Shown here one piece after another: positions 10,966 through 63,248 of a stretch of 64,000 bases of DNA. This stretch comes from Conchocele bisecta. Lineage: Eukaryota; Mollusca; Bivalvia; Lucinida; Thyasiridae. Below the pieces are notes generated by a model. The model was not told the origin of the DNA and did not search any database. It worked only from the letters and a program-made list of their open reading frames with translations. The translations under genes and the position numbers were made by a program. Every line of letters begins with the position of its first letter. Positions within the stretch are counted from its first letter, which is position 1. The stretch covers positions 4,048,323-4,112,322 of the forward strand of contig CM055279.1 of assembly GCA_029237695.1 (NCBI GenBank). Reading direction: 5' to 3'.

Positions 10966-11158
10966 GGCGAAGTTAACGGCGTATCTAACGGCGACGTCGT
11001 TCCGGTGGCCGGTATAAATGACGTCAGTGACGGCAATACAGAGGATGAGCGGGGTCAGTGGGGGTCAAGGTGGGAATTCCTGCTGTCGTGTATCGGCCTG
11101 TCCGTGGGACTGGGAAATGTATGGCGGTTCCCGTATCTGGCCTACCAACATGGCGGAG
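10966..11158 (+). CDS. SLC6 exon 1 of those seen: cytoplasmic N-tail and TM1
   Basis: Acceptor TTGTACAG after a pyrimidine-rich tract; donor GTATGT; leaves phase 1. Encodes 64 residues: an acidic, Asn/Gly-rich tail, then [10 protein letters not shown] at about residues 29-38. Its Arg and Trp match the family's cytoplasmic gate motif. TM1 (about 37-58) contains [17 protein letters not shown], the unwound segment that binds Na+ and substrate. The reading frame is open upstream of the acceptor but has no nearby ATG, so an earlier exon carrying the start must exist, outside the window or too short to recognise. The exon joins exon 2 as His-Gly-Gly-Ala-Ala-Phe, where most relatives have three Gly before Ala-Phe. 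Confidence 0.93.
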
Positions 11159-26100: not shown

Positions 26101-29100
26101 ACACCATGGGGACCTCCCAGGGTGTCCGGTTTAGAGAGGTCCCACTGTAATAACCAGACACATCATGTATTTGCAGGTATCGGTATCTCCATGTTGCTCA
26201 TCTCGATTGTGGTGGCCATCTACTACAACGTCATCATGGCGTACACACTCTACTACTTCTTCTCCTCCATGCAGAAGACGCTCCCATGGACCGTGTGCAA
26301 AGACGTAAGTTTATTTCCCAGCCATGTAATATATGTTGACATTGTGAGCGTGTATGTGTAAATGCAGTGAGTATATTTCCCATTACATGTGGCAATGTGT
26401 TGACATTGAGTGTGTACAAAGACGTGAGTATATTTCCCATGCATGTAGCAATATGTTGACATTGAGTGTGTACAAAGACGTGAGTATATTTCCCATACAT
26501 GTAGCAATATGTTGAAATTGGAGCGTTTGTACAAAGACGTGAGTATATTTCCCATCCATGTAGCAATATGTTGACATTGAGTGTGTACAAAGACGTGAAT
26601 TATATTTCCCATGCATGTAGCAATATGTTTGACATTGAGGCGGTGTACAAAGACGTGAGTATATTTCCCATGCATGTAGTAATATGTTGACATTGAGCGT
26701 GACAAAGAACCGTGTAGTATATTTCCCATACATGTAGCAATATGTTGACATTGAGCGTGTACAAAGACGTGAGTATATTTCCCATCCATGTAGCAATATG
26801 CTGACATTGGAGTGTGTACAAAAGACGTGAGTATATTTACCTTCCATTTAGCAATATGTTGACATTGAGCGTGTACAAAGAAGTGAGTATATTTACCTTC
26901 CATGTAGCAATATGTTGACATTGAGTGTGTACAAAAGAAGTGAGTGTATTTCCCATCCATGTAGCAATATGTTGACATTGAGCGTGTACACAGAAGTGAG
27001 TATATTTCCCATACATGTAGCAATATGTTGAAATTGAGCGTGTACACAGAAGTGAGTATATTTCCCATTACATGTAGCAAATATGTTGACATTGAGAGTG
27101 TACAAAGACGTGAGTATATTTCCCATCCATGTAGCAATATGTTGACATTGAGAGTGTACAACGACGTGAGTATATTTACCATCCATGTAGCAATATGTTG
27201 ACATTGAGTGTGTACAAAGAAGTGAGTATATTTCCCATCCATGTGGCAAAATGTTGACATTATAATTACCATCAATGTAATAAATGTTAATTTTGACCGT
27301 GTGTAATGGCGTGAGTTATTTTTCCCATCCATGTTGCAATAGGTTAATATTGACCGTGTGTAATGACGTGTGAACGAATTGTTATATCGTGGGAACGAAT
27401 TAATACAAATAAAAACCATGTCCCCTGCGGGGCTCCGTAGGATGATGAAATGCGTTGCAGCCAGGACACTAATTGACCGTACGGTGGAACCTCTCGTAAC
27501 CGGACAATTTTCGAAAAAAAAAAATATATTTTTCGAAAATTTTAATTTTTCACCCTGGTGAGGTTCACAGGGTGTCCGGCTTATAGAGGGTTCGCTGTAA
27601 ATCAGGCATTTGCGTGCTATGCGATCACGAACAGTCATTATCACCTGAAATAAATGACCAAGAAACTCATCAAAAGTAACATCACACGTGTGTTATTTGT
27701 GTTCGGTTTAGAGAGGTTTACACTATAGTACCAACAGCAAATAAACCACGTACCACTTTTCACCAAACGTATATATGGAAGCGTCCTGGTGTCAATGCTA
27801 GAATATATTTATCTCCAAATCAGGAGATACTGAGTCCTAATTAGCCGATAGTAACTACTAATTAGGAGTTACTATCCTAATTAGGACTTAGTATCTTCTA
27901 ATTAGGAGTTAGTATATTCTAATTAGGAGATCAAATTTATTTAGCATTGACACAAATAGTAAGTCCGAATTAGGAGATTGTAAGTCCTAATTAGGAGATA
28001 ATAAATCGTAATTAGGATATACTAACTCCTAATTAGGAGACACTATCTCCTAGGTAGGATAACAAACTATTATAGCATTGGCACCAGGTCGCTTTCATAC
28101 GGTTTATGATTTTTAGGAGTGGGCGTCACTGGGATGTGTGCAAGTCACGACGAAGGCCCTCCCGGTGGCCGTGTGCTGGCAACATCACAGAGAAATGCCT
28201 CTGCACGGGCAACTACACGTTCAATACTTACACAAACTGCACGAATACGACCAACAACCCCCCCCCCGTCGCTGAACTCTTCTTTGAGTAAGTTTACGTC
28301 AGACGCTCATATGCCCGCATTATTGAACGAACGAGTTGAACTTCTGTTATTTTTATTTCTACGTGAATTCTACTTACGGGTTTCATTGGCGTTGATTTAA
28401 TCTACTGTCTGTTTCATGAAGCTTGTCAAACTTTTACAGCTATATCAAGGTGTATGATCACGTGGTACTAACAACACAATAAGTAACCGATTTCAAAGTA
28501 CCTATTATTTTATAGTTGTCAAATTATTATACCCCCCCGCAACGATTGTGGGGGGGGGGGGGGTATTACCTGGAGTAGGTGTCGTTCCGTCCGTCCGGTC
28601 CCGCCGTCCGGATATACTTAACAAATCAGAGAAATATTTTTAAAAACTATTTCCTTCACTTAAAAGTTGATAATTCATGCATTTCCTGGTAGGCTCACTA
28701 CCTGGCTTGTGCCAAAATCCACACCGTCAACCCCCGCAGATCCGTGGCCAAGTCGTACTTAGTCACTTTACAAAACTTAACTTCAGAGAAATATTGTTAT
28801 AACTTCATATTTCCTTCATCTTAAAATGCTTAATATTTCACACATGCATTCCCTGTAAGGCTCTACTACATGCTGTGCCAAATCCACGCATCCAACCCCC
28901 GTCTGAATCCCCCACCGCATACTAGGTCAAGGTCAAATACTTAGTCTCTTTACAAAACTTAACATCAGAGAAATATTTTTATAACTTCTATTTCCTTCAT
29001 CTAAAATGCTTAATATTTCACACATGCATTCCTGTAAGGCTCTACTACCATGCTGTGCAAAATCCATGACCGTCCAACCCCCACTGAACCAAATGTCAAG

Positions 29101-29506
29101 GTCAAATACTCTTTACAAAACTTAACACAGAGAAATAAAGTTAATAACATTCTATTTCCTTCATTGAAAATTCTTATTATTTCACTTGTGCATTCCTCTA
29201 AGGTTGTACTATCATGCTGTCACAAATCTACGAGTGTCCACCCCGCTGATCCCAAGGTCAAGTCACATACTTAGTCTCTTTACAAAACTTAACATCAGAG
29301 AAATATGTTATAACTTCTATTTCTTTCATTGATTACTTAATTATCATATGCTGATGATCATCGTTTGCTGTGACAAATCCCCGCTGATCTCGAGGTCAAC
29401 GTCACATACATACCGTATAACCTCGGCTTAAGCCCCCCCCACCCCCCCCCTCCTAATCCCAAACGCCGCCCCAACCACCCCCCAAAATCCCCCAAACTCC
29501 AACCCC

Positions 29507-29539
<33 letters not shown>

Positions 29540-29832
29540 ATACAAACCCCCACCCCCTATTTTATCCAGTATAAAAAAAAATTGTATTATTTTTTATTTT
29601 TTTTTTTTTTTTAGTACCGTGTGACCAACCCAATTTCAAAACACAATAAGGATTTAAGGATTATTTTGTGTGATTGATTATTTTTTACTGGCTAATAAAC
29701 GCCCCCCCCCCCCCCCCCCCCCCAATTAAAAAAAAAAGAAAAACTTTTTTTTACCAATGACCGCCAATTTCATTTACACAAATAATCTTTTAATTATTTC
29801 CTTATTTGTGTTTGAAATTGGTGGTCCTGGGT

Positions 29833-29870
<38 letters not shown>

Positions 29871-38800: not shown

Positions 38801-41800
38801 TGCATTACATGTATAAGTGTTGGCTTAGCCCCGGAATGAGCATTGTCTAACCCTAACTCGCACACGCTGTACGTTTGAACACGGCTGTGAGGGTTGATGT
38901 GGTTCATTGGCATCCATCTCCGACGATAAATAGAGAATACCAGGCTAGTGTCTTTTGATATCAAATGTATCAGGCAAAGGTTCGTCCGCAGCAAAACGTG
39001 GAACAGAGACATATCTCTCCAATACCTACCACATATTGGTTTACGTATACACATTTTACCCGCCTTTTACATTGAAGTTCGCGGTATAGCTCAGTAGGAC
39101 TGCGGACTGCGGATCCCCGGGTTCGATCCCCACCTCGACCGAATGGACTACTCGGCGTGTCCTTGGGCAGGACAACTTCGTGCTAGCCTAGTCCTATCGG
39201 GTGGGGACTTAAATAGTTGGCCCCAACATGCAAGGTCATCGAGCCAGTGCCGTTGTTAAATCAAAGTATTTACATTTAGGTTCGCTTAAGCCGGGCTAGG
39301 TTTCTGTCATAAATCCGTGACATTATTTGCACACAAGTATAATAAAAAAATGCTCGTTCGCAATTGCTTATTTCACGTGTTTCACGATTAGCATTGGTAT
39401 CTTGAATTTGTCTCGTAATTAGTCTATATTTTTAATTTTATTTTTCTATTATTTTATTTCTCGCAGGTGTGGGTGGCTGCGGCCGGACAGATGTTTTTCT
39501 CACTGAGCGTTTCGTTTGGAGGTATCATAATGTTCGGCAGTTATAACAAATTCAGGAACAATGTATATAGGTGAGTATTGTCGAACACCCCCATCCCCAC
39601 CACCCCCACCTGTGGACGCCCGCACCCCACCCCTGTGGATCTCCCCGTTTGGTCGGTTCAAAACTTTACAGTGGAACTTCTTAAAACCGGACATCCTGGG
39701 AGGTCCCCAGGGTGTCCGGTTTAGAGATGTTCCACTGTAAATCAGACATATGACTATGCCAAGGTATGCGGCTGTACTTTGCGAACTTGAACAGGCATCA
39801 TCATCTTAAATATACACCATTTAAACCCATACAATTAAGGATGCACAGACTGCCTGCATGTCCGGTTTAGAGGGATTCTGCTATAGTATATATTTTATGC
39901 ATGGTAACGAGTCGTGAAGTTCAGGACCCAGAATTGGTATATCTAATAAAGCCAATAAACGAGGTTTGTGGAATGTGAAGCGGGAGGTCGAATTTCTTAT
40001 ATTTTCTTTCATTTTTTGTTTGTTTGAGATGTTCGTGTCTGATTTGTTTCAAGTTGAAAACATCAGAGACGAACATCTAAATAAAAATATGTTCCATACA
40101 GTTACTAGTCCACTTTTAGACGTGCAAATCACAAGATTTTCGTCCGACATGGTTGGACATGGTTGGATTTAACATATGTTTACATTGTCAATAATATCAA
40201 AAATGTTTCACGGCACCGTGTTTCACGGCACATACGCACTGTGTTGACGGGTTAATAAATAACCGGCTCCCCATTATTTAAACACCTGTCGTTTCTTTCA
40301 ACCTATGTCGTGTCATCATTTTCACGTTTTATTAATTAGAAAACGGTGTTTCCATTGGCTTAAACGTGTCACGTTTAAACCAACGGAAATATCGTTTTCT
40401 AATTAAAAACGTCGCGTTTATACCAACGAAAACTCGTTGTCTATTTGAAAATAACGAAAACGATGTGCAAACGATAGGCAATAGTTCGTTGTGGAACGAG
40501 GGACACATCCGGTCTGTATTTATGCATTTACAGGCACACAAGCTTTGTTTAATTGAATTTAATTTGAGCTTGCCTTCATTTTACCATTAGGAATATCTAA
40601 CTGGACTACCTATACAAACTACAGATAAAATAGCAGTAGTATATGTGTAATAATTACATTTGTCTAAGGATGGAATGAAGCGAAGAAAAATCTATATTTT
40701 TATAACTATTTATGTAACCCGAACTGTCTGGCTGTGACTCATGACGATTTATATATAGATAATACCAGTCTAGTGTCTTTTGATATTAAGTTTATCAGGC
40801 AAGGCTAGGAAATGCGTAGGAATTCCGAGGCTTGCCGAGGAATTGCTACCGTTTCCGAGCCGAGCCTGATAAACTTGATATCAAAAGACACTAGCCTGGT
40901 ATTCTATTTATCAGGTAACGTTTTGTGCTCGAACATGATCACATATGACGTCATTATCTATGGACAGAACGCGGACTTGTTTATTTTGTCTCATTACATT
41001 GACGTCCTTCGGTAACGTCACGTGACGTCATCCGACCCAATGGAACGTCAGTTTTCACTTCGATGTAACCCGGATGTGTGTACCAGGTCAATGCCTGATA
41101 CAACAATGTGTTATCAGTGAGTACGTATTCTGTCAATACAGGACAGGTTTCCTGATACATAAGTTACACCATGTGACGGCCATGAATTTCTGGATAATTC
41201 CGAACTTTCTGGCTGTCACACATAAGTCACACTGTGTGACTTGAATTTATTACTATTTATGCAACGATTTATGCAACGATTTATACAAAGATTTATGCAA
41301 CTATTTATGCAACTATTTATGCAATTATTTATGCAACTATCTACGCAACAATTATGCAACTATTTAGGCAACTAGCTATGTAACTATTTATGCAACTATT
41401 TATGCAACGCTTTAGGCAACTATTTATGCAAATATGTATTATTATTTGTGCAACGATTTGTGCAACGATTTACGCAACCATTTATGCAACTATTTATACA
41501 ACTATTTACGCAACGATTATGCAACTATTTATGCAAGTAGCTATGCAACTATTTATGCAACTATTTATACAACAATTAATGCAACTATTTATGCAACTAT
41601 TTATGCATTTACAGGGACGCCTTGATAATCTCCATAATGGATATAGTAACGAGCCTGATCGCGGGGTTCGTGATATTCACGACGTTCGGCGGCATGGCAA
41701 AGGAGATAGGGGTGGAAGTGAAGGACGTGGCGAAGGGCGGGTACGGTCTTGCTTTCATCGCTTATCCTGAGGCCCTGTCCAATCTCCCGCCCTCACAGCT

Positions 41801-44800
41801 GTGGTCCATTCTATTCTTCTTCATGCTGTTTACACTGGGTCTCGACAGCGAGGTAAATTATAATTGAGACACACCATGTGATGTTGTACCTTTGGACATC
41901 TGCGTAGTTTCATTAAATACGTTTACAAAATTTACAATATTATTCCAAAAATAAAGTCAAAAGTTGACAAAATTGTCAGAGTACATGCGGAATATAATTC
42001 CGCATGTACTCTGAAAATTTTGTCAACTTTTGACTACAATTACGGAAAATATTGTAAATTTTTTAAACGTATTTCATGAAATTACGCAGATGTCCGCAGG
42101 TACAAAATAAAATGGCGTGTCTCATATGTTGGTGTGACAGGAGAAATGAGGGCTTATGGGTTTTGCGACCAGTGTAGCTCCCGGTCAGATATCAGACTCA
42201 TGTAGCCTAATAACGATGTATATTGCAAGTTTGAAGCATAACGGGCGTTTCGTTGATGGATTTACGAACAGCGCAGATCCTGATCAGACTGCGCGGATGC
42301 ACAGGCTGACTGGATATACGGTGATCACAATACACATAAGCCCCATTTCTCCAGTCACAGCCACATATTTATTATTATTATCACTACTGTCTGTTCCACG
42401 TTTTGCTGCCAACGCAGGCATTAAATCTAAGAAATATTTGAATGTAAGCAATTATCTTTATTTGATGAAATTCCATCAAATATTGATTTTATTGCGAACA
42501 CAATTTAACAATGAGCAAATAGGAGATGGAGAGTGAGGAGGAGGATCGGAAAACGAAAACAAAAAAGGAAAATTGCTCCAAATTTTGAAAATCGCAATAA
42601 AATCTATATTTGATGTGCAGCACTACGCGCCGGTGTACACTGTTTCATGTTGAAGTCGGCGCCGGATTCCTGACGAATTCCCATTCAGCTACACGCAGAT
42701 GATACTGAATAAACACATGTTTGTCTAGTTACCGATGCAAAAAAATCGTGATTGCGTGATTACTTCCGATGTTATGAGACTTTGTATTTTGCTTTATTTC
42801 AATGGCAGCCATATTTCCTCAAGGTTGATTTTAGTAAACTCTTTTTTTCTTCACTAATATCAAAGACTTGAACACAGTTGAGAAACTAAATGTTGCAATT
42901 TTGTCCAACCTCAACCTTTTTTCAGTGGAACCCCTCTAAACCGGACACCAAGAAAACACCTGTGATGTTATTTTTGATGCGTTTCTTGGTCATTTATCTC
43001 GAGTGATAATGTCTGTTCATGATCGCATAGCACACAACAATTGTTCAGAATGATCAAATGCCTGATTTACAGTGAAATCTCTCTAAACCGGACACCCTGG
43101 GGACCTCCCAGGGTGTCCGGTTTAGAGAGGTTACACTGTACTTACTGAAATATTGCAATAGAAAGACAATCTATATATATAAGCTAATATAGTGAAACAA
43201 CGAAGTGACCAAACTGACACCCGTGGAGGCCAGTATCTCACAAACCCGCGAAAACTAATGATATGTCTGGGTCATCTGTTTTGACAGGTATTATGTCTCA
43301 GCAACTAGTTTCAGTATTTTTAGACAACATGGCTGTCATGCAATAACCTAGTAGAATTATATATTATCACATGAACACCTTGCTATGGCGTGTTGTAACC
43401 CATTTCATAAATGTGATATGACACACGTGTAATAACACCTGCTGTGAATTTGATTGGCTGGCCACATCACCATAATTACGTATTGTTACATGGTTTCCGT
43501 TGTTTGCACATATGTGCAAACATATAGAGCGTGCTGTTTGCACATGGCTTTAGGCAATGCTCAATCCGGGGCCGCGCGTAATGGAAGTGCCTTCATGACG
43601 TCACTACGCGGAAGTGCCTTCATGACGTCACTACTTCATGACGTTCATGACGTTCATGACGCGGCCCCGGAATATGAATACCGAAAATTATCTACGTGAA
43701 TGGGACAATTTATAAAAGTACTGAAAATACTGAATATAATGTTCAAATTACATCATTTTTTTGTTGGAAATGTAACAATGTTTGCTGTGGCCCTCGGGAA
43801 CTGTTTGAACCCGCGGCCTGCGGCCTTGGGTTCAAACAGTTCCCTCGGGCCACAGCAAATGTTTGCACACGGCTGGACATGATCAAACCTTATATTCGTA
43901 TTATGCGCCAACGTTTTGGAAAACGAACAAAACGAAGATGTTCCAAATGACGTCCCAAATGGCGCGAAAAAGCAACAATGTTTTGACGTTGGCGTCATCC
44001 TATTTTAAACGTCATTAGAAGCGTCTGAGACTCAGTAAAATCAATACAATTATTAAAATTCGCTCCAGTCAGGTAATATTATAGGAATGAATGGCCTTTT
44101 TGTGGAATTTATCGGGGTATAAACTTGGAAAAGTCGCGGGAATATTGGACGAAGGCCAGAAGGCCTCGTCCAGTATTCCCGCGACTTTTCCAAGTTTATA
44201 TCTCCGATAAATTCCACAAAAATGCCATTCATTCCTTATAATTCCAGCATTTGAAATAAATTCATCAAGAAAATGTGTTTATTTTCCGTTTTCTTAAAAA
44301 TTATTTTAACTGCGCCTCACGGTTACGGAAAGTAGTTCGGCGTGGGAGTTTACTGGGATATACATTTTGGAAAGAGACTTGCTACGGGCCAATCAAATGT
44401 TAGGGAATTGTGTAAATATTTTTGTGCTAGAATTATGAAGTGTTTGCAAAGAACGAGCAACTATAATATGGAATATTTATAATATATTTATTGCTAGTAT
44501 TAAAACTATTTTTCTTGGTAGAGCTTTTCAACTCATTGCGAAAATAGTCAATGGCGTCTTCTCACTGAAACGTATCAGATATCTTAAAATGTTCTGATAT
44601 TTGGAGTGTGAAGTCATGTGATAAACAAAATCTCAAACTCGTTTCCATTTGATAAGAGATTTATGAATCTCGTCAGAAATGTTATGCACCTTGTCACGTG
44701 GTTACAACAACAACAACGTCGCCCACTCCAAAGTAAGTATTCTTTGATATTTTCCTTAATATGCAACGGAATTTGATGAAATATGGCGCAGCAAACGCGT

Positions 44801-53800: not shown

Positions 53801-56800
53801 ACTGTATCGTGTCTCTATATTATGTAGGCGGGCGACCATATCGTGTCTCTATATTGTGTAGGCGGGCGACTATATCGTGTCTATATATTGTGCAGGCGGG
53901 CGACTATATCGTGTCTCTATATTATGTAGGCGGGTGACTATATCGTGTCTCTATATTGTGTAGGCGGGTGACTATATCGTGTCTCTTTATTATGTAGGTG
54001 GGCGACTATATCGTGTCTCTATATTGTGCAGGCGGGTGACTATATCGTGTCTCTATATTGTGTAGGCGAGTGACTATATCGTGTCTCTATATTGTGTAGG
54101 CGGTCGACTATATCGTGTCTCTATATTCTGTAGGCGGGCGACTATATCGTGTCTCTATATTCTGTAGGCGGGCGACTATATCGTGTCTCTATATTATGTA
54201 GGCGGGTGACTATATCGTGTCTCTATATTCTGTAGACGGGTGAATAAATCGTGTCTCTATATTCTGTAGGTGGGCGACTATATCGTGTCTCCATGTTCTG
54301 TAGGTGTGCGACAATATCGTGTCTCTACATTCTGTAGGCGGGCAACTATATCGTATCTCTACATTGTGTAGGCGGGCGACTATATCGTATCTGTAAAATA
54401 TTCTGTAGGCGGGCGACTATATCGTGTCTCTATATTATGTAGGCCGGCGACTATATCGTGTCTATATATTCTGTGTCTCTATATTTTGTAGGCGGGCGAC
54501 TATATTGTGTCTCTATATTCTGTAGGCGGGCGACTATATCGTGTCTCGATATAGTGTCGGCGGGCGGCTATATCGTGTCTCTATATTCTGTAGGTGGGCG
54601 ACTATATCGTGTCTCTATATTTTGTAGGCGGGCGACTATATTGTTTCTCTATATTCTGTAGGCGGCGACTATATCGTGTCTTTATATTGTGCAGGGGGGC
54701 GACTATATCGTGTCTCTATATTGTGTAGGCGGGTGACTATACCGTGTCTCTATATTGTGTAGGCGGGCGACTATATCGTGTCTCTATATTCTGTAGGCGG
54801 GCGACTATATCGTGTCTCTATATTGTGTAGGCGGGCGACTATATCGTGTCTCCATATTCTGCAGGCGGGTGAAGATATCGTGTCTCTATATTATGTAGGC
54901 GGGCGACTATATCGTGTCTCTATATGCTGTAGGAGGGTGACGATATCGTGTCTCTATTTTCTGCAGGCGGGTGACTATGTTGTGTCGCTGATGGACCATT
55001 ACGGGGCCGATTTTGCCGTGCTATTTGTTGCCACGTGCGAGTGTATAGCAGTAATGTGGGTTTATGGTAAGTACATTGGCTTCAAAACTTAGCGAAAAGT
55101 TTTTGTGGCTGTGACTGGATACATGACACGTATGCGTTTTGCGACCAGTGTAGATCCAGATCAGACTGTGCAATCGCACAGTCTGATCAGGATCCGCACT
55201 GTTCGCCATTCCACCAATGAAACACCCGTCATATCATGTTTCTAACAAGCGATATACATGTAGATCGTTTTTCGGCTACATCTGTGTGCTATTTCACCAG
55301 GAGCAACACTGGTCACAAATCCAATAAGCATCATGTCTTCAGTCACAACCAAGCCACAATTAATTAATGAAACTAACCATTGTACAGTATATCATTACAT
55401 ACATTTGTTTGGAAGAAACAACCACGGGGGTGGTATTGTAAAACGAGAAATTACAGGGTGTGCCACAGGGTATGGGATCACGTGGTCTATTGCTTACACT
55501 GGATTAATGGCATCGCCCATGAGGTCTCAGGTAAATCTTATATTTCATCAATACGACTGCGGTTTCTTCTTTTAATGCGGTCAGTGTCAGATGAGACTCA
55601 ATAATAATACACACACATTCGTCCTTGGTCAGGATAACTTGGAAATGATATAAGAAAATAAAAGTTACGTTTGGAAAATCGGTCCAATATTTCTGAAATT
55701 AGAAAAATTTCCCCATGTTAAATCCTCTCTGTGAATGTGGGGATTTAACATGTGGAAATTGATTTTTTCGCAATAAAATCAATATTGGACAAAATTTCAC
55801 GAAATAAAAAGTAAGCTCATTCTTAAAGTTTGCTATAATTTAATATTATCGAAATATATATTGTTTTTGCATTATTTATATAGTCGTAAAATTTAGGCAG
55901 GTTTCGTGAAACAGACCGTAAATGTGATGATCATGAAATATTTGAGAAAAAACATGTTCAATTTGTATCGTATTTCTGAACCAAATTGTACTATTAAGTC
56001 GCCTATATAAATATTGGATTGACAATAGTAACAGGGCGCCAGATAAGCAATTAGTAATTGAATATTGTCACTCCATCATTTATGAAGCAATTGGGTATTT
56101 CAAAAATTTAATTGGGTAAAATAAAATCACACTACTCTTTATACATCAACAGACAGCAATTATTGAATTGTTTGCTTCGAAATGAAAACATATATTGGCA
56201 TTTCATTATAATTATCTCCTTGGAGACAATTCTAATGAATAACCAAGATGTGTTTTCATGGAAAATAAGAAAACTCTATATTTGCTATATTTGTGGTCTG
56301 TTTATTGTTTTCTGCAGCATGATAAAGGTACCACACAATTCTTATTGCTTTTTGATACTCGCTACTTCTGATTGCGATTGGGTTTTTGGCATTTTTAATT
56401 GGGTATTTAAGCAAATACGCAGCTTAACTGGAGCGCTGATAGTAATATGTTCTTATTACTGTAAAATAACTAGCGTTTGGCACACTAGTTATTTTTAAAT
56501 AGTTTAACGTGTTATGTTATGTACTTTTAAAGGTACATGCCCACTCAGTATGCACAAACTGTTCTTTATAGGAATTACATAACTGTATAATTGTGTCACT
56601 ATTCAACCCGTTCTAAAATTAACGAGTGCCCGCTATACAGATATAATAATTTACTAATATTTATTTAACTGATATTGACTCGCGGTGGTATCAGGCTATT
56701 TGGATTGTTCTTTAATCTTCAGGTGTTCGACGATTTCTGAAGGATGCGACATATATGTTAGGACATAAGCCACGCCCCGTATACTTCTGGACTATATGCT

Positions 56801-59052
56801 GGGCTGTGATAAGTCCCGTTCTTATTGCTGTAAGTATATTCTCTAGTAGACGTTAAAATAGGACACGCCCCGTGTACGATATGCTGGTCTATGATTAGCC
56901 CCGTCCTTATGGGTGTAAGTACTTGCCCTAGTTGTTGATAATAATGACCACGCCCCGTGAACTACTAGCTGATCTGTTACTTCCTGATTGGTCCCGTCAT
57001 TATTGCTGTAAGTACATTCCTTAGCTGACACACCCCTGTAATTCTGGACGATATGCTGGTTCCTGATTGGTCCCGTCCTGTTTGGTTTAAGTATAATCGC
57101 TGGTTTACGTCAAAATAGGCCACACCCCGTATACTTCTGGACGATATGCTGGTTCCTGATTGGTCCCGTCCTTATTGTTGTAAATACGTTCCCTAGTTGA
57201 CGTTAACATAGGCCACGCTCCATGCACTGCTATGCCCGGTTGCTGTAAACATCTGTTAGCTTAACGGATTGTTAAATCATTAACATTGTTAAGAATTTAA
57301 CAGTCCGTTAAGGTAGCATACGTTTTGAGCAAACCGGTGCCAGTATTATGTTCGCTCTTCATTGGTCCCGTCCTGACTGGTGTAAGCATATTCTCATGTT
57401 GACGTTAATATAGGCTACGCCCCGTGTACCTCTGGACGATAAGCTGGTTACTGATTGGTCAAGTCCTTATTAGTGTAAGTACGTTCCCTAGTTGAAGTTA
57501 ACATAGGCCACGCCCCATGCACTGCTGGACCCGGTTGCTGTAATCATATGCTAAGTATATGATGTAAGTATGTTTTCATGTTGACGTTAGTATAGGCCAC
57601 GCCCGGTGTACATCTGGGTGATATATTAGTTTCTGATTGGTCCCGTCCATATTGCTATAAGTACATTCTCACTTTGACGCTATATAGGCCGCGCCCCGTG
57701 TATTTCCGATGATATATTAGTTTCTGATTGGTCCCATTTTACTGCTGTAAGTATATTCCCTGGTTGACGGTATTATAAGCCACGCCCCGTGTACTTCTGG
57801 ATGATATATTACTTTCTGATTGGTTCCGTGTTATTGCTGTAAATATATTCCCTGGTTGACGTCACATAGGCCACGCACCGTGTACTTCTGGATGATATAT
57901 TACTTTCTGATTGTCCCTGTCCATATTGGTGTGAGAGTATTCCCTGGTTGATAGGCCACGCCACATGCACTGTTGGGCCCGGTTGCTGTAAATGTCTGCT
58001 AGCTTAAAGGACTGTTAAATCCTTAACATTATTGTTAAGGATTTAACAGTCCGTTAAGCTAACAGAGGTTTTGAGCAACGGGACCTAGGATGATTTGTTA
58101 GCTGCTGATTGACCCCGTATGTATTGGTGTAGGTTTATTTGTTAGTAGACGTTCTTATAGGACATGCCCTGTCAACTCATGCATTACATGCTAGTTTCTG
58201 ATGATTGCCCGTATTGTTGGTGCATGCGTATTATCTAACTCACCACTTGTTCTCGTCGAAAAATGCACCCTGCCGAGTCATTCGGCCCTGCTTAGAGCTA
58301 TCGCATAGCTAACACATTATTCGTATAGTAACTTCGTACAGTATCTTCTGCATGTCGCTGAATGGGAATTGGTCAGGAATCCGGTGCCGATTTCAACGTG
58401 GAATATTTATCCCGTGAACACAGTGAGTATGTGCCGTGAAACATTTTTGATATCCTGTCAATACAACCTAATAATTGCGTATGAATATGTGCGGTGGCTG
58501 GGGTTATTTTTTATTTAATTTTAAAGCCATGTGTAGGTGTTGACGGGATAAATAGAATAGTAAGTTAGTGCCGTGAATGGGAAAAATATATGGCGCGGCA
58601 CGGTAACGCGATGGGCTCGGTAGAGCCTCGCCCATCCCGTTTCCTAAGCCTTGCCGGATATTTTTTCCATTCACGGCACAAACCTACTATTCTCTATGTT
58701 ACGCTGACGTGGAGTGCAGCACCAATGAAGAACACAACGTGTTTACAAATTTCAGCTGCTGTTTCTATACCGGATGATCGACTATAATCCCCCAGAGATC
58801 TCAAAGGGCGTGCCCTTCCCAGTGTTCGCGCAGATCATTGGCTGGTGCTTGTTTGCGGTGGTCACGTGTCCAATTCCGCTCACATTCCTCTACAAGCTTT
58901 ACGGCGCCAATGGCAGTCTGACCGAGCGGTTACGGTTTATCACGACTCCAACTCCAGAATGGGGACCAAATGACGGAAGTGACAGGTCAAAACTTCAGAA
59001 TGCATACGCGATGAGCGCAAAAGATGGTCTAGATAATCCGGCGTATAACTAA
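10966..59052 (+). CDS. SLC6-family sodium-dependent amino-acid/neurotransmitter transporter, 12 coding exons (5' end missing)
   Basis: Spliced gene: exons 10966-11158, 14590-14721, 26177-26304, 28117-28287, 33710-33848, 38310-38444, 39467-39570, 41615-41852, 51762-51890, 54967-55066, 56723-56829, 58756-59052. All introns are GT..AG and the phases agree across every junction apart from a one-base surplus in exon 4. Total 1873 nt, or 624 codons with the stop after removing one base. The product is a 12-helix plasma-membrane symporter that uses the Na+ gradient to import a small amino acid or related substrate. Visible family hallmarks: [10 protein letters not shown] in TM1, a W-x2-C / W-x3-C pair in loop 2, a glycosylated loop 2, SYNKF after TM6, YPEAL in loop 4 and LGLDS in TM8. 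TM1 has Gly where monoamine transporters have Asp, so an amino-acid substrate (glycine or neutral amino-acid type) is more likely than a monoamine; the exact substrate is not determinable. No initiator Met is visible. Confidence 0.93.
11400..11690. mobile_element. Family J foldback element, inverted
   Basis: Begins TTTATCCCGTCAACACAATG and ends near CACTAACCTACTATTCTCTA; centre CGGAATGGGCTCGGCAGAGC. Inverted relative to the copy at 8150. Confidence 0.8.
11790..11945. mobile_element. Family E fragment
   Basis: Contains GATCTGCACTGTTCGCCATT and CAATGAGACACACGCCATGC, the inner part of family E, and ends ATCTCCAGTCACAACCA. Confidence 0.65.
12046..12350. mobile_element. Family F foldback element
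   Basis: Termini GTAGCCTATTTCATCAAAAT and ATGTTGATGAAATAGGCTAC; same inner hairpin AATGTAATAAATTCAGTATA as the copy at 10535. Confidence 0.88.
13029..13243. mobile_element. Family H-like foldback element, diverged
   Basis: Ends TTAACCCTTAGAAGGCG and CAGCACTGTAAGGGTTAA; centre TTTAGAATCATATCCATTGG with its inverse, a subfamily also seen inside the elements at 37065 and 52551. Confidence 0.8.
14088..14345. repeat. 46-bp minisatellite
   Basis: Five to six copies of a unit containing TCAGTAGGCCAATAGCCGTA and GGTAGTAGCTGCTGACCATC, one of them shortened. Lies 245 bp upstream of exon 2 and does not contain exon sequence. Confidence 0.93.
14590..14721 (+). CDS. SLC6 exon 2: TM2
   Basis: Acceptor CATCCCCAG, donor GTACGG; enters in phase 1 and leaves in phase 1. 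Encodes [20 protein letters not shown], then [16 protein letters not shown]. This is TM2 and the conserved G-[KR]-P-x(4)-E-x(2)-L-G-Q region leading into the first intracellular loop. Conservation of the E and GQ residues argues that this is a functional exon. Confidence 0.93.
14986..15204. mobile_element. Family C foldback element
   Basis: CAGTGGAATCTCTCTAAACC and CAGGGTGTCCGGTTTGGAGA form the left hairpin; a TCCGGGCTCCACTGTA end lies at the right. Confidence 0.7.
15300..25807. repeat. 10.5-kb minisatellite of a 19-bp unit
   Basis: About 550 copies of GGTACATGCACACTCAGTA. Main variants: ATGCCC for ATGCAC, GATACA for GGTACA, and loss of one G (AGTACA). The variants mix throughout, but the last 300 bp (about 25505-25807) are nearly all of the CCC type. 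Longer blocks with the same rare variants recur, for example TGCACTCATGCACAC at 16451 and 18116, so the array has also grown by duplication of kilobase blocks. No coding potential. Confidence 0.98.
25931..26149. mobile_element. Family C foldback element
   Basis: Left end CAGTAGAACCCTCTATACCG; right hairpin GGTGGAACATCTCTAAACCG with GGTGTCCGGTTTAGAGAGGT. Ends just before the exon 3 acceptor region. Confidence 0.8.
26177..26304 (+). CDS. SLC6 exon 3: TM3 and start of extracellular loop 2
   Basis: Acceptor TATTTGCAG, donor GTAAGT directly after AAAGAC; leaves phase 0. Encodes TM3 with [19 protein letters not shown]; the Tyr-Tyr-Asn stretch is the family's substrate-facing part of TM3. It is followed by LPWTVCKD, which carries the first Cys of the conserved loop-2 disulfide. 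The exon's last 12 nt and its donor are the seed of the array at 26305-27370. Reading through the donor meets a stop at about 26359, so correct splicing at the first donor is required. A foldback repeat of the CCGGACACC type ends only about 28 bp upstream of the exon. Confidence 0.94.
26305..27370 (+). repeat. 56-bp tandem array seeded by the exon 3 donor junction
   Basis: About 19 copies of a unit starting GTGTACAAAGACGTGAGTAT, followed by TTCCCATCCATGTAGCAATA and TGTTGACATTGAGC. The exon ends GTGTGCAAAGAC before its GTAAGT donor, so each unit carries 12 nt of exon and a good 5' splice site (AAAGAC before GTGAGT), plus about 38 nt of intron. Copies have scattered indels and the last two are more diverged. 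Minus-strand open frames across it are artefacts. Confidence 0.95.
27371..27439. mobile_element. Family A fragment (right end)
   Basis: Two CGAATT subrepeats followed by CATGTCCCCTGCGGGGCTCC GTA. The left half is absent; it abuts the 56-bp array. Confidence 0.75.
27480..27727. mobile_element. Family C element
   Basis: ACGGTGGAACCTCTCGTAAC and GGTGTCCGGCTTATAGAGGG inner pair; outer right end TTCGGTTTAGAGAGGTTTAC. Confidence 0.7.
27805..28075. repeat. Short palindromic tandem repeats (CCTAATTAGGA)
   Basis: About a dozen copies of a self-complementary motif CTCCTAATTAGGAG interleaved with AGTATCT or AGTAACT, ending 40 bp before exon 4. The motif and its complement can pair along the whole stretch. 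Confidence 0.85.
28117..28287 (+). CDS. SLC6 exon 4: extracellular loop 2, with internal one-base frame conflict
   Basis: Acceptor TTTTTAG, donor GTAAGT after TTTGA. The first codons follow exon 3 in phase 0 and read EWASLGC, the expected second half of the loop-2 disulfide motif. The 3' part reads in the +1 frame: [18 protein letters not shown], then a Thr/Asn-rich stretch, three prolines and VAELFFE. It holds four N-glycosylation sequons ([12 protein letters not shown]), as loop 2 should. The exit phase needed by exon 5 is that of the second frame. The exon is 171 nt where 170 (or 173) would keep frame. The switch falls between about 28137 and 28165. A run of ten C near 28258 is a usual error site but lies downstream of the switch. 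Assembly error or a defective allele are both possible. Confidence 0.82.
28521..30210. mobile_element. Inserted element with roughly 165-bp tandem core
   Basis: Starts with a C7 run and a long G run separated by CAACGATTG, then CCGTCCGTCCGG. It holds about six copies of a unit with TTACAAAACTTAACATCAGA, TTTCCTTCAT and ATGTCAAGGTCA-like parts (near 28616, 28764, 28944, 29109, 29279 and 29955), and ends with CGGGGGGTATTCCG. It resembles tandem-core elements common in bivalves, by general style only. Confidence 0.65.
29411..29957. mobile_element. Foldback nested inside the tandem-core element, with homopolymers
   Basis: Ends TACCGTATAACCTCGGCTTA and TTCGAGGTTATACGGTA are inverted repeats and interrupt a core unit (the flanking CACATA and GTCTCTTTACAAAAC are otherwise contiguous). 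The interior has runs of about 30 C, 25 C and 37 T, with TACTGGCTAATAAACGCCCC twice. Sequence accuracy is doubtful here. Confidence 0.7.
30275..30774. other. Assembly gap (500 N)
   Basis: Exactly 500 N, a conventional placeholder length. Both edges read GCTGCATTTGGTGG, so the true gap may be absent. Confidence 0.99.
31100..31425. repeat. Family R repeat
   Basis: Shares AATATTATCGAAACAAATAT and TTGTTTTTGCATTATTTATA and the end GGTTTCGTGAAACAGAC with 55670-55922. Function unknown. Confidence 0.65.
31567..31975. mobile_element. Family Q element
   Basis: Termini GTAGCTAGTTATCTACCTTT and AAAGGGAGATAACTAGCTAC are inverted repeats. Contains a family E-like perfect hairpin (GACCCAGATCAGACTGCACA) and ATTCATATTTTCACAC. 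Second copy at 60914-61325. Confidence 0.8.
32689..33060. mobile_element. Family B foldback element
   Basis: Left part AACATTTGATTAGTCCGTAG, then the AAAAGTCGCGGGAATACTGG hairpin. One arm tip is duplicated (GGAAAAGTCGCGGGAATACT appears twice before the turn at about 32980). Confidence 0.85.
33710..33848 (+). CDS. SLC6 exon 5: end of loop 2 and TM4
   Basis: Acceptor TTATTGTAG, donor GTGAGT; enters phase 2 and leaves phase 0. Encodes [19 protein letters not shown], then TM4 ([20 protein letters not shown]) and the start of the intracellular link (KGVKSSGK). The split codon with exon 4 gives Glu. Degenerate copies of the 3' part of this exon with its donor follow at 33885-34320. Confidence 0.94.
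33849..34320 (+). repeat. Tandem degenerate copies of the exon 5 3' junction
   Basis: The first copy (33885-33977) aligns with exon 5 from GAGAACATGGGCGCC to the donor, with an 8-nt deletion and an in-frame stop. Four shorter copies each keep about 20 nt of exon (GAGTTAAGTCGTCCGGCAAG type) plus GTGAGT, with donors at 34044, 34129, 34210 and 34291. Intronic spacer text TATCGGTCT or TATTGGTCTTG is repeated too. Older and more diverged than the exon 3 array. Confidence 0.9.
35118..35405. mobile_element. Family D foldback MITE, internally deleted
   Basis: CAAGGTGTATGATCACGTGA to ACGTGATCATGCACCTTG. The left arm jumps from TATTACGTAACG directly to AAAACGACATAAGTCTGTGC, so the central hairpin is lost. 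Confidence 0.85.
35680..35790. mobile_element. Family C element, partial
   Basis: CAGTGGAACCTCTCCAAACC then CCCCACTTGTCCGGTCTGG. Confidence 0.65.
36386..36450. repeat. Family E core hairpin
   Basis: Perfect palindrome: GTGTAGACCCAGATCAGCCT, GCGC, and its complement. A second incomplete copy lies at 35865-35925. Confidence 0.8.
36515..36813. mobile_element. Family F foldback element
   Basis: CACCAACATTGCAAAGTATA to TATACTTTGCAATGTTGATG plus AAATCGGCTAC. The outermost left bases differ from the other two copies. Confidence 0.85.
37065..37420. mobile_element. Family P composite element
   Basis: Left arm CGGCCACCTCTCTACAACAA; right part CTCCCTACAACAGCTACC and GGTGGATGTTGTAGAGA; middle a family H-like hairpin (ATCATTTCCATTGGAATGAT). 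The copy at 52551-52925 has the same order. Confidence 0.75.
37586..37947. mobile_element. Family A foldback MITE
   Basis: Complete: TACGGAGCCCCGCAGGGGAC to GTCCCCTGTGGGGCTCCGTA, with many ATTCGTTCCCACGAA subrepeats. No clear 6-bp flank duplication at this copy. Confidence 0.85.
38162..38200. repeat. Family C fragment
   Basis: ACAGTGGAAGCTGTCTAAAC then CGGACACC; single arm, 110 bp upstream of exon 6. Confidence 0.6.
38310..38444 (+). CDS. SLC6 exon 6: TM5 and extracellular loop 3
   Basis: Acceptor TCGTTTCAG, donor GTCAGT (weaker than GTRAGT); 45 codons, phase 0 to phase 0. Encodes [20 protein letters not shown] (TM5 with the TATFPY motif), then [20 protein letters not shown] and LLDLE. The G-x(5)-G-[IV] helix and the P-x-W-x-K-L segment of loop 3 are typical of glycine and neutral amino-acid members of SLC6. 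Confidence 0.94.
38505..38605. repeat. Family L hairpin
   Basis: Arms GTTCGACAATGTCCAGCCGT and ACGGCTGGACATGTTCGAAC around GGTTCAAACATGTCCC. Related to 43720-43890. Confidence 0.7.
38690..38855. repeat. Family M repeat
   Basis: Ends ACATATTCCGGGGCCGCAGT and AGCCCCGGAATGAGCATTG; shares ATTCCGGGGCCGC and CCGGGGCCGCG with 43550-43690 in the opposite order. Confidence 0.55.
39081..39270 (+). mobile_element. tRNA-derived SINE
   Basis: Head GCGGTATAGCTCAGTAGGAC with an A-box-like TAGCTCAGTAGG, then a B box GGTTCGATCCC, the RNA polymerase III internal promoter. The spacing fits a tRNA-related head but the acceptor stem is not a functional tRNA. The tail has TCCTTGGGCAGGAC, a motif like the conserved central domains found in many metazoan SINEs. 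Single copy in this window. Confidence 0.75.
39467..39570 (+). CDS. SLC6 exon 7: TM6
   Basis: Acceptor TTCTCGCAG, donor GTGAGT; phase 0 in, phase 2 out. Encodes [19 protein letters not shown], then [17 protein letters not shown]6 supplies the second unwound substrate-binding segment ([10 protein letters not shown]) and ends in the near-invariant SYNKF-x-NN-x-YRD motif, completed by exon 8. Most relatives have W-x-D-A at the start of this segment; here it reads W-V-A-A. Confidence 0.94.
39668..39887. mobile_element. Family C foldback element
   Basis: CAGTGGAACTTCTTAAAACC with GGTGTCCGGTTTAGAGATGT as the left hairpin; right end TGTCCGGTTTAGAGGGATTC. Confidence 0.8.
40199..40258. repeat. Family J fragment
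   Basis: AAATGTTTCACGGCACCGTG and CATACGCACTGTGTTGACGG, the tail of family J. Confidence 0.7.
40326..40462. repeat. Family S hairpin
   Basis: Arms GGCTTAAACGTGTCACGTTT and AACCAACG, like 5408-5556. Confidence 0.7.
40755..40917. mobile_element. Family K foldback element, complete
   Basis: Termini GATAATACCAGTCTAGTGTC and GACACTAGCCTGGTATTC are inverted repeats; centre GGAATTCCGAGGCTTGCC. Confidence 0.8.
41235..41614 (+). repeat. 12-bp minisatellite running into the exon 8 acceptor
   Basis: About 30 copies of GCAACTATTTAT with variants (GCAACGATTTAT, ACAACTATTTAC). The last unit, TATTTATGCATTTACAG, is itself the exon 8 acceptor region, so the 3' splice site is built from array sequence. Confidence 0.93.
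41615..41852 (+). CDS. SLC6 exon 8: TM7, extracellular loop 4 and TM8
   Basis: Acceptor CATTTACAG, donor GTAAAT; phase 2 in, phase 0 out. Encodes [20 protein letters not shown] (TM7), an IFTTFGGMA exit, loop 4 with [17 protein letters not shown], and TM8 [18 protein letters not shown]. The Asp-Ser of LGLDS corresponds to the Na2 site. In TM7 an Asp stands where many chloride-dependent members have Asn next to the Na1/Cl site, while the later Ser of T-S is kept. This is the longest internal exon. Its acceptor sits at the end of a 12-bp minisatellite (41235-41614). Confidence 0.94.
41866..42126. mobile_element. Family I foldback element
   Basis: TTGAGACACACCATGTGATG to TGGCGTGTCTCATATG; centre GTACATGCGGAATATAATTC. 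The most symmetrical family I copy. Confidence 0.8.
42131..42372. mobile_element. Family E element
   Basis: GTGTGACAGGAGAAATGAGG to CCCCATTTCTCCAGTCACAG; inner CAGATCCTGATCAGACTGCG. Confidence 0.75.
42922..43141. mobile_element. Family C foldback element
   Basis: CAGTGGAACCCCTCTAAACC left end; inner pair CAGTGAAATCTCTCTAAACC and GGTGTCCGGTTTAGAGAGGT. Confidence 0.8.
43550..43895. mobile_element. Family M and L hairpins inserted in family N
   Basis: GGGGCCGCGCGTAATGGAAG with a tandem TTCATGACGTCACTAC segment and CGCGGCCCCGGAATATG, then a perfect hairpin around CGCGGCCTGCGGCCTTGGGT with CTGTTTGAACCC arms. Absent from the copy at 60204. Confidence 0.7.
44079..44436. mobile_element. Family B foldback element inserted in family N, inverted
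   Basis: Starts with TATAGGAATGAATGGCCTTT, hairpin AAAAGTCGCGGGAATATTGG, ends GCCAATCAAATGTTAGGGAA. Family N sequence on either side is contiguous at 60500. Confidence 0.85.
44692..45078. mobile_element. Family D foldback MITE inserted in family N
   Basis: Left end CCTTGTCACGTGG with GTTACAACAACAACAACGTC; right end AGGTGATCATACATCTTG; complete central hairpin TATGTCGTTTTTGCGAAGAA. Confidence 0.85.
45219..45246. repeat. Family C single arm
   Basis: ACAGTGGAACCTCTCTAAAC CGGACACC with no partner arm nearby. Confidence 0.6.
45340..48205. mobile_element. Element with 2.8-kb tandem core, pearl/Helitron-like
   Basis: About eleven copies of a 205-340 bp unit: CTCTGCAACTGCTTTGCCCA, AACTTCACATGGGTGTTTAT, CCCGTGCGGCCCCTGTGCCC, TGTCAAGGTCAAATTACTTT, then a variable number of TTTTTGGTTAAG subrepeats. 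A different module, GTCGCGCCCGCTTGCGGACA with GATATAGTCGGCACTTTGG and an ACGT microsatellite, occurs at 45347, 45657 and 48017. The right end has CGCCACAAGGCG and the string CATCTAGT. Non-autonomous elements with internal minisatellites (pearl type) are known in bivalves; the Helitron link is inference. Confidence 0.7.
48877..49012. repeat. Hairpin with a pentanucleotide microsatellite in its loop
   Basis: Arms GTAAATAAAAACAAGAACAT then TTGAGAGAACACAGGTA, and the inverse, enclose about 11 copies of AGGTA (48910-48964). Confidence 0.88.
49088..49180. mobile_element. Family E fragment
   Basis: GCGAACAGTGCAGACCCCGA and GGATCTATACTGGTCTCAAA, the right half of the family. Confidence 0.65.
49243..49659. 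mobile_element. Family D foldback MITE, complete
   Basis: Termini CAAGGTGTATGATCACGTGG and CCACGTGATCATACACCTTG are exact inverted repeats. The arms include AACAACAACAACGTCGCCCA, and the centre GTGTCTCCGACACGG lies near 49440. The open frames of about 72 codons on both strands recur in every copy because the element is palindromic. Confidence 0.92.
50210..50477. mobile_element. Family A foldback MITE
   Basis: TACGGAGCTCCGCAAGGGAC to GGCGCTCCGTA, flanked by GCTTGT on both sides (6-bp target-site duplication). Confidence 0.88.
50573..50989. mobile_element. Family D foldback MITE, complete
   Basis: Same termini as the copy at 49243; centre CGTGTCGCAGACACG near 50770. Very similar in length (417 bp), which suggests recent or single-source amplification. 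Confidence 0.92.
51272..51336. repeat. Family C partial tandem arms
   Basis: GTACAGTGGAACCTCTCTAA ACC, CCTGGGAGGTCC repeated; no closing arm. Confidence 0.6.
51762..51890 (+). CDS. SLC6 exon 9: intracellular loop and TM9
   Basis: Acceptor GTATTTCAG, donor GTAGGC (weak); 43 codons, phase 0 to 0. Encodes [20 protein letters not shown], then [20 protein letters not shown] and VTP. F-x-x-LE-T-[VL]-[MI]-T after TM8 is typical for the family. The helix is TM9 and the exon ends before the T-x-x-G-G/A-G turn supplied by exon 10. Confidence 0.93.
52030..52545. repeat. Diverged tandem repeat of about 45 bp
   Basis: Around ten copies sharing CTTTTTAATGCGGTC, GTATACAAAC and GCACCTTG with many substitutions. 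It starts soon after exon 9 but does not contain exon 9 sequence. Confidence 0.8.
52551..52925. mobile_element. Family P composite element, complete
   Basis: CAGTCGAACCTCCGTGAACG to TGTTGTAGAGAGGTTACACT G, with the inner TCATTTCCATTGGAAATGAT hairpin. Confidence 0.8.
53227..53453. mobile_element. Family E element
   Basis: ATGGCTGTGACTGGAGAAAT to ATTTCTCCAGTCACAACCA; inner CAGAACCTGATCAGACTG. Confidence 0.75.
53614..53689. mobile_element. Family A left half, cut by the exon 10 array
   Basis: TACGGAGCCCCGCAAAGGAC to AACAATTCGTTCCC, then directly the first unit of the 34-bp array. The right half is missing. Confidence 0.8.
53690..54966 (+). repeat. 34-bp tandem array seeded by the exon 10 acceptor junction
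   Basis: About 37 copies of TCTGTAGGCGGGCGACTATA followed by TCGTGTCTCTATAT. Exon 10 begins GCGGGTGACTATGTTGTGTC after CTGCAG, so each unit repeats the acceptor AG and about 22 nt of exon, with a short T-rich stretch between. Most units have TGTAG and several TGCAG before GCGGG. The array ends exactly at the real acceptor. The unit has few stops in any frame, so long open frames cross it. Confidence 0.95.
54967..55066 (+). CDS. SLC6 exon 10: extracellular loop 5 and TM10
   Basis: Acceptor TTTTCTGCAG, donor GTAAGT; phase 0 in, phase 1 out. Encodes [20 protein letters not shown], then [13 protein letters not shown]. The LMD-x-Y segment and the helix with an acidic residue before the A-V-x-W-V-Y-G exit are TM10 hallmarks. 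The first 22 or so nucleotides of the exon plus its acceptor are the seed of the 34-bp array directly upstream (53690-54966). An acceptor-like TGCAG at 54864 lies 102 bp upstream, in frame. Confidence 0.94.
55106..55348. mobile_element. Family E element
   Basis: GTGGCTGTGACTGGATACAT to GTCTTCAGTCACAACCA; inner perfect hairpin GATCAGACTGTGCAATCGCA. Confidence 0.75.
55670..55922. repeat. Family R repeat
   Basis: AATCGGTCCAATATTTCTGA with inverse AATCAATATTGGAC, and TTGTTTTTGCATTATTTATA, as at 31100-31425. Confidence 0.65.
56525..56700. repeat. Family O tail fragment
   Basis: AAAGGTACATGCCCACTCAG TATGCACAAACTGTTC to ATCAGGCTATTT, matching 4140-4320. It contains one exact unit of the CCC variant of the intron 2 minisatellite. 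Confidence 0.75.
56723..56829 (+). CDS. SLC6 exon 11: intracellular loop 5 and TM11 (first part)
   Basis: Acceptor TAATCTTCAG, donor GTAAGT; phase 1 in, phase 0 out. Encodes [18 protein letters not shown], then [17 protein letters not shown]. Matches the family pattern G-x-x-R-F-x-x-D-x-x-x-M-L-G and W-x-x-C-W-x-x-[IV]-S-P. About fourteen diverged copies of the 3' part of this exon and its donor follow (56830-58225). Confidence 0.94.
56830..58225 (+). repeat. Tandem array (about 100 bp) seeded by the exon 11 donor junction
   Basis: About fourteen diverged copies of the last 70 or so nt of exon 11 with its donor. Shared blocks: GGCCACGCCCCGTGTACTTC, TGGACGATATGCTGGTT, TGATTGGTCCCGTCC and TTATTGCTGTAAGTA, then an intronic GTTGACGTTA spacer. 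Exon 11 itself has GCCACGCCCCGTATACTTCT and CTTATTGCT before GTAAGT. Most copies keep the GTAAGT-like donor. Two copies contain the same inserted hairpin (57255-57330 and 57985-58065). Confidence 0.9.
58410..58700. mobile_element. Family J foldback element
   Basis: TTATCCCGTGAACACAGTGA to CACAAACCTACTATTCTCTA; centre CGCGATGGGCTCGGTAGAGC. Confidence 0.8.
58756..59052 (+). CDS. SLC6 exon 12: end of TM11, TM12 and C-terminal tail with stop
   Basis: Acceptor ACAAATTTCAG; starts phase 0 and ends with TAA at 59050-59052. Encodes [20 protein letters not shown], then TM12 ([20 protein letters not shown]), [13 protein letters not shown], and a cytoplasmic tail of about 50 residues containing TPTPEWGP and ending in DNPAYN. 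The W-x-x-x-x-G-W-C pattern is replaced by F-A-Q-I-I-G-W-C-L, still canonical around G-W. The C-terminal NPAY is a possible NPxY-type sorting motif (inference from the short pattern only). Confidence 0.94.
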   Translation: MLFLYRMIDYNPPEISKGVPFPVFAQIIGWCLFAVVTCPIPLTFLYKLYGANGSLTERLRFITTPTPEWGPNDGSDRSKLQNAYAMSAKDGLDNPAYN

Positions 59053-59342: not shown

Positions 59343-59680
59343 TACGGAGCCCCGCAGGGGACATGGATTTTTTTTTACTTCGTTCTCTCGAATTAACAAT
59401 TCGTTCCCACGATATAACAGTTCGTTCCCTCGAATTAACAATTCGTTCCCTCAATTAAACAATTCTTTCCCTTGAGTTAACAATTCGTTCCCACTATATA
59501 ACAATTCATTACCACGAATATTTCGTGTGAACGAATTATTGAATTGAGGGAACGAATTGTTAATTCGTTGGAACGAATTATGAATTCGTGGGAACGATTG
59601 TTAAAATGAGGGAGCGAATTGTTATTTCATGGGAACGAGTTAATAACGAAAATAATTATACGTCCCTGCGGGGCTCCGTA
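59343..59680. mobile_element. Family A foldback MITE, complete
   Basis: TACGGAGCCCCGCAGGGGAC to CCTGCGGGGCTCCGTA, flanked by CCATCC on both sides (6-bp target-site duplication). Confidence 0.9.
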
Positions 59681-62351: not shown

Positions 62352-62594
62352 CCTCAATTTAACAATTCGTTCCCACGAAATAACAATTCGTTCCCACACG
62401 GGAAAGAATTGTTAATTCGTGGGAATGAATTGTTATATCGTGAGAACGAATTGTTATATCGTGGGAACGAATTGTTATTTCGTGGGAACAAATTGTTAAA
62501 CTGAGGGAACGAATTTTTCATTCGAGGGAACGAATTGTTACATCGTGGGAACGAAATAATACAAAAATATCCATGTCCCCTGTGTTGCTCCGTA
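62352..62594. mobile_element. Family A element, left end missing
   Basis: CTCAATTTAACAATTCGTTC to ATGTCCCCTGTGTTGCTCCG TA; joined to the family G piece without the usual TACGGAGCC end. Confidence 0.8.
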
Positions 62595-62928: not shown

Positions 62929-63248
62929 TAGGAGCCCCGCAGGGGACATGGTTTTGTTTTATTAATTCGTTTCCACGAAATAACAATTAGTTCCCTCGAA
63001 TTGGCAATTTGTTCCCACGAATTAACAATTCGTTCCCACGATATCGTGGGAACGAATTGTTATTTCGAGGGAACGAATTATTATATCTTGAGAACTAATT
63101 GTTATTTCGTGGGAATAAATTGTTAAATTGAGGGAACGAATTGTTCGTGGGAACGAATTTTTAAATTGAGGGAACGAATTGTTAAATTGATGGAACGAAT
63201 TGTTATTTCGTGGGAACGAATTATTAAAAAAGAATTCTACTTCCCGTA
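62929..63248. mobile_element. Family A element, right end degraded
   Basis: TAGGAGCCCCGCAGGGGACA to GAATTCTACTTCCCGTA; the right terminal inverted repeat lacks its CTGCGGGGCTCC part. Confidence 0.8.

Follow-up and report, generated by a model that had tools for sequence, protein, structure and literature searches.

Tandem duplications of exon-intron boundaries have been described in amphioxus under the name 'mirages', in Adh3 and in the globin genes BflGb6 and BflGb9 (PMC3087553). As far as the accessible part of that report goes, they affect both 5' and 3' boundaries, their units range from 10 to about 160 bp and their copy number varies; AG or GT is retained in many of the copies, and regular splicing was undisturbed as judged by RT-PCR. 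Related events, likewise taken from the accessible parts of the respective reports, are a potato gene in which an intron was gained via a tandem duplication across a boundary (PMC4974935), and human segmental-duplication genes in which the expansion of internal tandem repeats alters exon/intron structure, boundaries included (PMC2812944). A minisatellite inside an intron has been described in abalone (PMC6905558), and intronic minisatellites near alternative splicing in C. elegans (PMC4039745); boundary-spanning arrays are absent from the accessible text of both descriptions. No report of boundary-spanning arrays in molluscs was found in the openly accessible literature that we searched.

Here we describe such arrays in a gene of the bivalve Conchocele bisecta (genome size 1.89 Gb). 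The stretch of DNA analysed, 64,000 nucleotides long, is referred to as the window; positions are those of the window and features lie on its forward strand unless stated otherwise. The gene (10966..59052), for which we located 12 coding exons (the start of exon 4 is uncertain), belongs to the SLC6 family: its joined working protein matches the sodium:neurotransmitter symporter profile PF00209 over positions 1-521 of 524 (E 8.5e-179). The closest named proteins among the best 120 of 6853 matches are those of Mactra antiquata (75%), Mya arenaria (73%) and Dreissena polymorpha (71%). Exons 5 to 12 form a single joined frame as far as the stop codon. In exon 4 (28117-28287) the start, EWASLGCVQ, and the remaining part lie in different frames, so either the frame breaks or the assembly has an indel somewhere between about 28145 and 28172; a run of ~10 C comes next. 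The window also contains a gap of 500 N at 30275-30774.

The donors of exons 3, 5 and 11 and the acceptor of exon 10 each form the exon-side edge of a tandem array, the units of which are copies of the exon's own end, its splice site and some intron. Exon 3 (26177..26304) ends in GAC followed by the donor gtaagt. Its array extends from 26285 to 27261, and to about 27372 at lower identity, in 56-bp units made of the last ~12-20 exon bases, the donor and ~44 bp of intron; there are 15 extra donor copies downstream, each with its GT. Exon 5 (33710..33848; CAAG followed by gtgagt) carries an array at 33791-34336 with irregular units of 66-129 bp that contain the exon end and the donor, with five extra donors at +129, +195, +280, +361 and +442. 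At exon 10 (54967..55066; acceptor tttctgcag followed by GCGGGTGAC) the array occupies 53684-54989, and its 34-bp units join ~10-11 bp of intron, the acceptor and ~23-24 bp of the exon start, giving 35 extra acceptor copies. Finally, exon 11 (56723..56829; GCT followed by gtaagt) has an array at 56763-58130 with units of 79-93 bp (about 92), each consisting of the last ~67 exon bases, the donor and ~25 bp of intron, and 11 extra copies. Each of the four arrays is confined to one intron.

When 40-base probes were placed on the junctions of the gene, copies within 2.5 kb were found at these four of the 23 junctions only, with 11 matches for exon 3, 4 for exon 5, 10 for exon 11 and 34 for exon 10; looser matching gave the 15, 5, 11 and 35 extra sites mentioned above. 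The exon 4 probe sites were 1 and 3 bases off the likely junctions, which were still covered, and the candidate start at 28145 was left out. Local duplications spanned 4/23 junctions at four of five detection settings and 3/23 at the fifth. From the duplications seen in the introns of this gene, 0.28-0.48 spanned junctions would be expected (Poisson P 0.0002-0.005, for a gene chosen because it showed the effect). Thus, the preliminary description was right that exons 3, 5, 10 and 11 own separate arrays with unrelated units; its view that four such events exceed chance agrees with the counts, with P values that come from a gene picked for the effect. It had also listed the acceptor of exon 8 (41615..41852) as built from an array, which did not hold: the 12-bp array ACTATTTATGCA (41252..41607) adjoins this acceptor and ends 7 bases short of the exon, so that the junction is not included, and the 40-base probe found 0 acceptor copies within 2.5 kb.

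The window contains further arrays away from the junctions. Most of intron 2 is taken up by 10.5 kb of tandem 19-bp units (AGGTACATGCACACTCAGT; 15298-25808). Arrays of a 21-bp unit, AATTCGTTCCCACGAAATAAC and its reverse complement, recur at 563-823, 37623-37881, 50245-50360, 59379-59646, 62400-62555 and 62964-63226, often as head-to-head pairs, and a mobile element is perhaps their carrier.

Set against the accessible account of the amphioxus mirages, the four arrays share several traits. Their units hold exon and intron sequence across the boundary, both kinds of boundary are hit (donors at exons 3, 5 and 11, an acceptor at exon 10), the unit lengths (34, 56, 66-129 and 79-93 bp here, 26-89 bp in the sample described below) compare with the range of 10-160 bp, and many repeats retain AG or GT. 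On the sequence features examined, the bivalve arrays therefore fit the mirage kind, and the link between arrays and junctions, which had been put forward as new, is of a kind already named in amphioxus. They differ in the host, in the copy number (up to 36 including the real site) and in the involvement of four junctions of one gene. In addition, recurrence was measured here over 201 junctions. Regular splicing is suggested by the joined frame of exons 5 to 12. As far as the accessible reports of the other two systems go, the potato intron gain likewise involved a tandem duplication across an intron-exon boundary that copied splice signals, but there one duplication gave rise to a new intron, while the bivalve arrays are many copies inside a standing intron with no evident new intron. 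The human genes also show minisatellite expansion at exon-intron boundaries; unlike here, the outcome in those cases is a longer exon or intron, or possibly a new intron, in recent paralogues.

The exon ends that bear arrays show few substitutions across seven other mollusc proteins, and therefore the arrays derive from the exons and not the exons from the arrays. The units at exon 10 encode AGDYIVSL, as in Mactra, while exon 10 itself has AGDYVVSL, which hints that the array retains an older state of the exon. This reading is suggestive, since the seven relatives are split at this position: isoleucine is found in four (Mactra, Mya, Sinanodonta and Lottia) and valine in three (Dreissena, Solemya and Haliotis). 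The mean divergence of the units from their consensus is 7-20%. The exon 10 array (53684-54989) is star-like, with distant units as similar as neighbours. The identity of adjacent units was 0.889 compared to 0.885 for all pairs at exon 10 (34 units), and 0.803 compared to 0.808 at exon 3 (14 units). Homogenisation of nearest neighbours was thus looked for in these two arrays and not seen, which favours a burst of amplification, after which the units mutated independently, or thorough mixing, over slow growth from neighbour to neighbour.

We searched the genome with pieces of the four arrays; common repeats can be missed in such a search. The pieces from exon 10 (8 matches) and exon 11 (5 matches) were found in place only, and those from exon 5 in place and in one 45-base match elsewhere (2 matches). 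The exon 3 pieces gave 8 matches in place and 11 in a second array 0.54 Mb away on the opposite strand (C15:3534028-3535498). The flank of this second array (locus L142, C15:3535381-3535760) is nearly identical to the window through exon 3 and its donor (3 differences in about 280 bases), after which indels in the array begin. The span of the array matches is about 1.07 kb in the window and 1.47 kb at the second locus, with flanks that are about 99% identical. The second locus looks like a duplicate of just the exon 3 region of the gene; it is inverted, nearly identical in sequence and has an array that differs from the one in the window. Since exon 10 has a single match in the genome, apparently only a part of the gene was copied.

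The occurrence of such duplications outside this gene was assessed in 141 exon loci of the same genome (SLC6 33, myosin 32, ABC transporter 30, kinesin 46). Of the ABC loci, five from the small contigs C895 and C676 were removed as bacterial-like, leaving 136, and keeping one locus per paralogue group left 111 loci with 201 scorable junctions. C895 holds intronless ABC transporter frames of 558-708 aa (L039, L040, L042 and L043) and C676 one of 161 aa (L045); these contigs are perhaps bacterial contamination or a symbiont. Junctions were called with a home-made score that used consensus frequencies. For L108 and L128 at least, it picked a wrong site; by reading, their true acceptors also lie inside an array. 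With 30-base windows at 86% identity, 15/201 junctions were locally duplicated. At 85% identity, 13/201 were spanned after reading of the sequences had removed the calls at L124 and L130. Spanned junctions included both donors and acceptors, and at 80% identity 9/201 had at least three repeat pairs. Multi-copy arrays with units of 26-89 bp were present at 6/201 junctions: a myosin donor (L011, 68-bp units, about 11 copies), an ABC donor (L052, 79 bp, 5 copies), the acceptor of an SLC6 paralogue (L086, locus position 412, 89 bp, 4 copies) and three kinesin acceptors (L104, L108 and L128). A later batch of 17 loci with 30 junctions, taken once the method had been fixed, part of the 111 and counted before the paralogue filter, gave 1-4 matches depending on the setting, compared to 0.5-0.7 expected under an uncorrected null; these numbers are small, and the L130 calls were subsequently removed. 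Junction-spanning duplication is thus a property of the genome and not of one SLC6 gene. The general tendency that had been proposed from the window is borne out by unrelated genes (myosin, ABC and kinesin), and the suggested look at SLC6 paralogues also came out positive, at L086.

By eye, the L086 acceptor seems to be at the same intron position as that of exon 10 in the window; its exon starts with GGSHWLQLLDEYYGG, its units are different, and the site is possibly a recurrent one. Another SLC6 paralogue, L071, has two tandem copies of one exon ~239 bp apart, covering profile positions 235-287 and 241-309, which are possibly alternative exons.

We interpret the arrays as minisatellites of the mirage type, which arise by frequent local duplication, are tolerated at junctions and are then amplified, so that the border would mainly be the inner limit of DNA that tolerates arrays. 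We give this reading a probability of roughly two thirds. In a first step, segments of roughly 25-130 bp would often be duplicated in place, anywhere in the genome. Duplications inside exons would then be purged by selection, while after a border-spanning duplication the spliceosome may stay on the exon-side copy, leaving the additional ones to the intron, a nearly neutral change with which our data are compatible. Lastly, some duplications would be rapidly amplified into arrays. This last step is partly borne out because the exon 10 units look burst-like and the length of the exon 3 array differs between two loci with ~99% identical flanks. Among the points against mere tolerance is that both exon 10 and the homologous-looking acceptor of L086 carry arrays, which neutral scatter would predict by luck only.

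The alternative is that duplication is targeted to splice junctions by transcription-, R-loop- or spliceosome-associated breaks or template switching, and is followed by amplification, which we consider unlikely. It would account for the four hits among 23 junctions in one gene and for what is apparently the same acceptor arrayed, with different units, in two SLC6 paralogues. In L003, L106 and L111, moreover, several short copies lie by eye on the junction with unrelated flanks; yet the centred look of short copies follows from their having been chosen for spanning it. The raw repeat coverage, determined for the first 119 loci (paralogues included, low-complexity windows excluded; 13/221 junctions spanned at 75% identity), climbed from exon to intron and showed only a slight bump at junctions. 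Exon interiors at a depth of 70-150 bp had 0.1-3%, the bins adjoining the junctions 5-7% and introns, at 100-370 bp from the junction, 3-8% on the donor side and 7-14% on the acceptor side; the bump on the donor side was from 6% at the junction to 3% at 30-50 bp into the intron, with up to 8% farther in.

As intron coverage is inflated by the length of the arrays, events were counted in collapsed coordinates. The ratio of junction events to those expected was 1.84 at 80% identity (bootstrap 0.90-3.18), 2.14 at 85% (1.01-3.88), 2.77 at 90% (1.27-5.39, an interval that excludes 1), 2.03 at 93% (0.70-4.22) and 1.59 at 96%, that is in the youngest pairs (0.36-3.90; 5 events). For components with at least three repeat pairs it was 3.9 (1.28-9.68) at 80%, 2.9 at 85% and 2.6 at 90%, and the interval excluded 1 at 80% identity only. 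All corrected point estimates are above 1 (1.5-3.9 over the intron rate), which is what targeting would lead one to expect; the corrected ratios were 1.5-3.7, and 1.5-3.0 with the background taken from 1400-base flanks. An enrichment of 4-11 fold, obtained with the first event null, was discarded, as that null confined intron pairs to a 400-base flank and so under-counted intron events. By argument, older junction pairs should be detected up to about twofold more readily, because one copy of each is exon under selection and hardly decays. The drop to a non-significant 1.5-1.6 in the youngest pairs fits this survival bias, on small counts, and weighs against targeting; the bias may account for some or even the whole of the excess.

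Thus, the excess of duplication at junctions is modest at most, about twofold and with 1 at the edge of the bootstrap interval; a true excess of up to about 2-4 fold is possible, as is nucleation of arrays at splice sites. The proposed nucleation at exon-intron borders is at most a candidate reading of the twofold excess of events, and is weakened by the slightness of the coverage bump and the smaller ratio in the youngest pairs. On the 201 sampled junctions, the comparison that had been suggested for the whole genome gave an enrichment at 85% identity that faded at 96%. A tentative idea, to which we give minority weight, is that local copying prefers junctions over introns by a factor of about 2-4, perhaps in connection with transcription or splicing, and that some junctions are recurrent hot spots, such as the acceptor that exon 10 and L086 apparently share.

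Selection that keeps the arrays, either as spare splice sites or because clustered U1/U2AF binding aids exon recognition, is very improbable. In its favour, GT is kept in 14/14 aligned units of exon 3, and of the 34 aligned units of exon 10, 33 have the A of AG and all 34 the G. Still, among all unit dinucleotides at exons 3 and 10 these reach no more than the top 15-18%, although the alignment was anchored on them; in the 10 units of exon 11 the donor G is kept at 0.8 and the T at 1.0, and the dinucleotide is in the top 27% of the unit. Special conservation of the GT or AG of the extra copies was thus looked for in these arrays and none was singled out. By a simple score with consensus frequencies, 13/15 decoys at exon 3 score 6.6-8.2 (7.1 for the real donor), and four of five at exon 5 score 12.2, the same as the real one. 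Any extra donor of exons 3, 5 or 11, when read through, adds 1-33 in-frame stop codons, and the extra acceptors of exon 10 would add steps of about 34 bases. Because of these stop codons and the single frame of exons 5 to 12, we infer that splicing, provided that the gene is in use, relies on the exon-side copy. Both the conservation ranks and the stop codons go against the splice-site redundancy that had been offered as a cause.

An artefact of assembly or polishing, which had been named as the other way in which the arrays might be explained away, is the least probable account: arrays are difficult to assemble, and the window has its gap and the frame break in exon 4, but the units are diverged and locus-specific, many loci show arrays with different units, and the exon 3 array was assembled twice.

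Mirage-like arrays at several percent of the sampled mollusc junctions suggest that many introns of repeat-rich animal genomes are loaded with decoy splice sites. The decoy arrays would provide a natural test bed for the choice of the spliceosome among dozens of near-identical sites, and new introns or alternative splicing may arise from such material.
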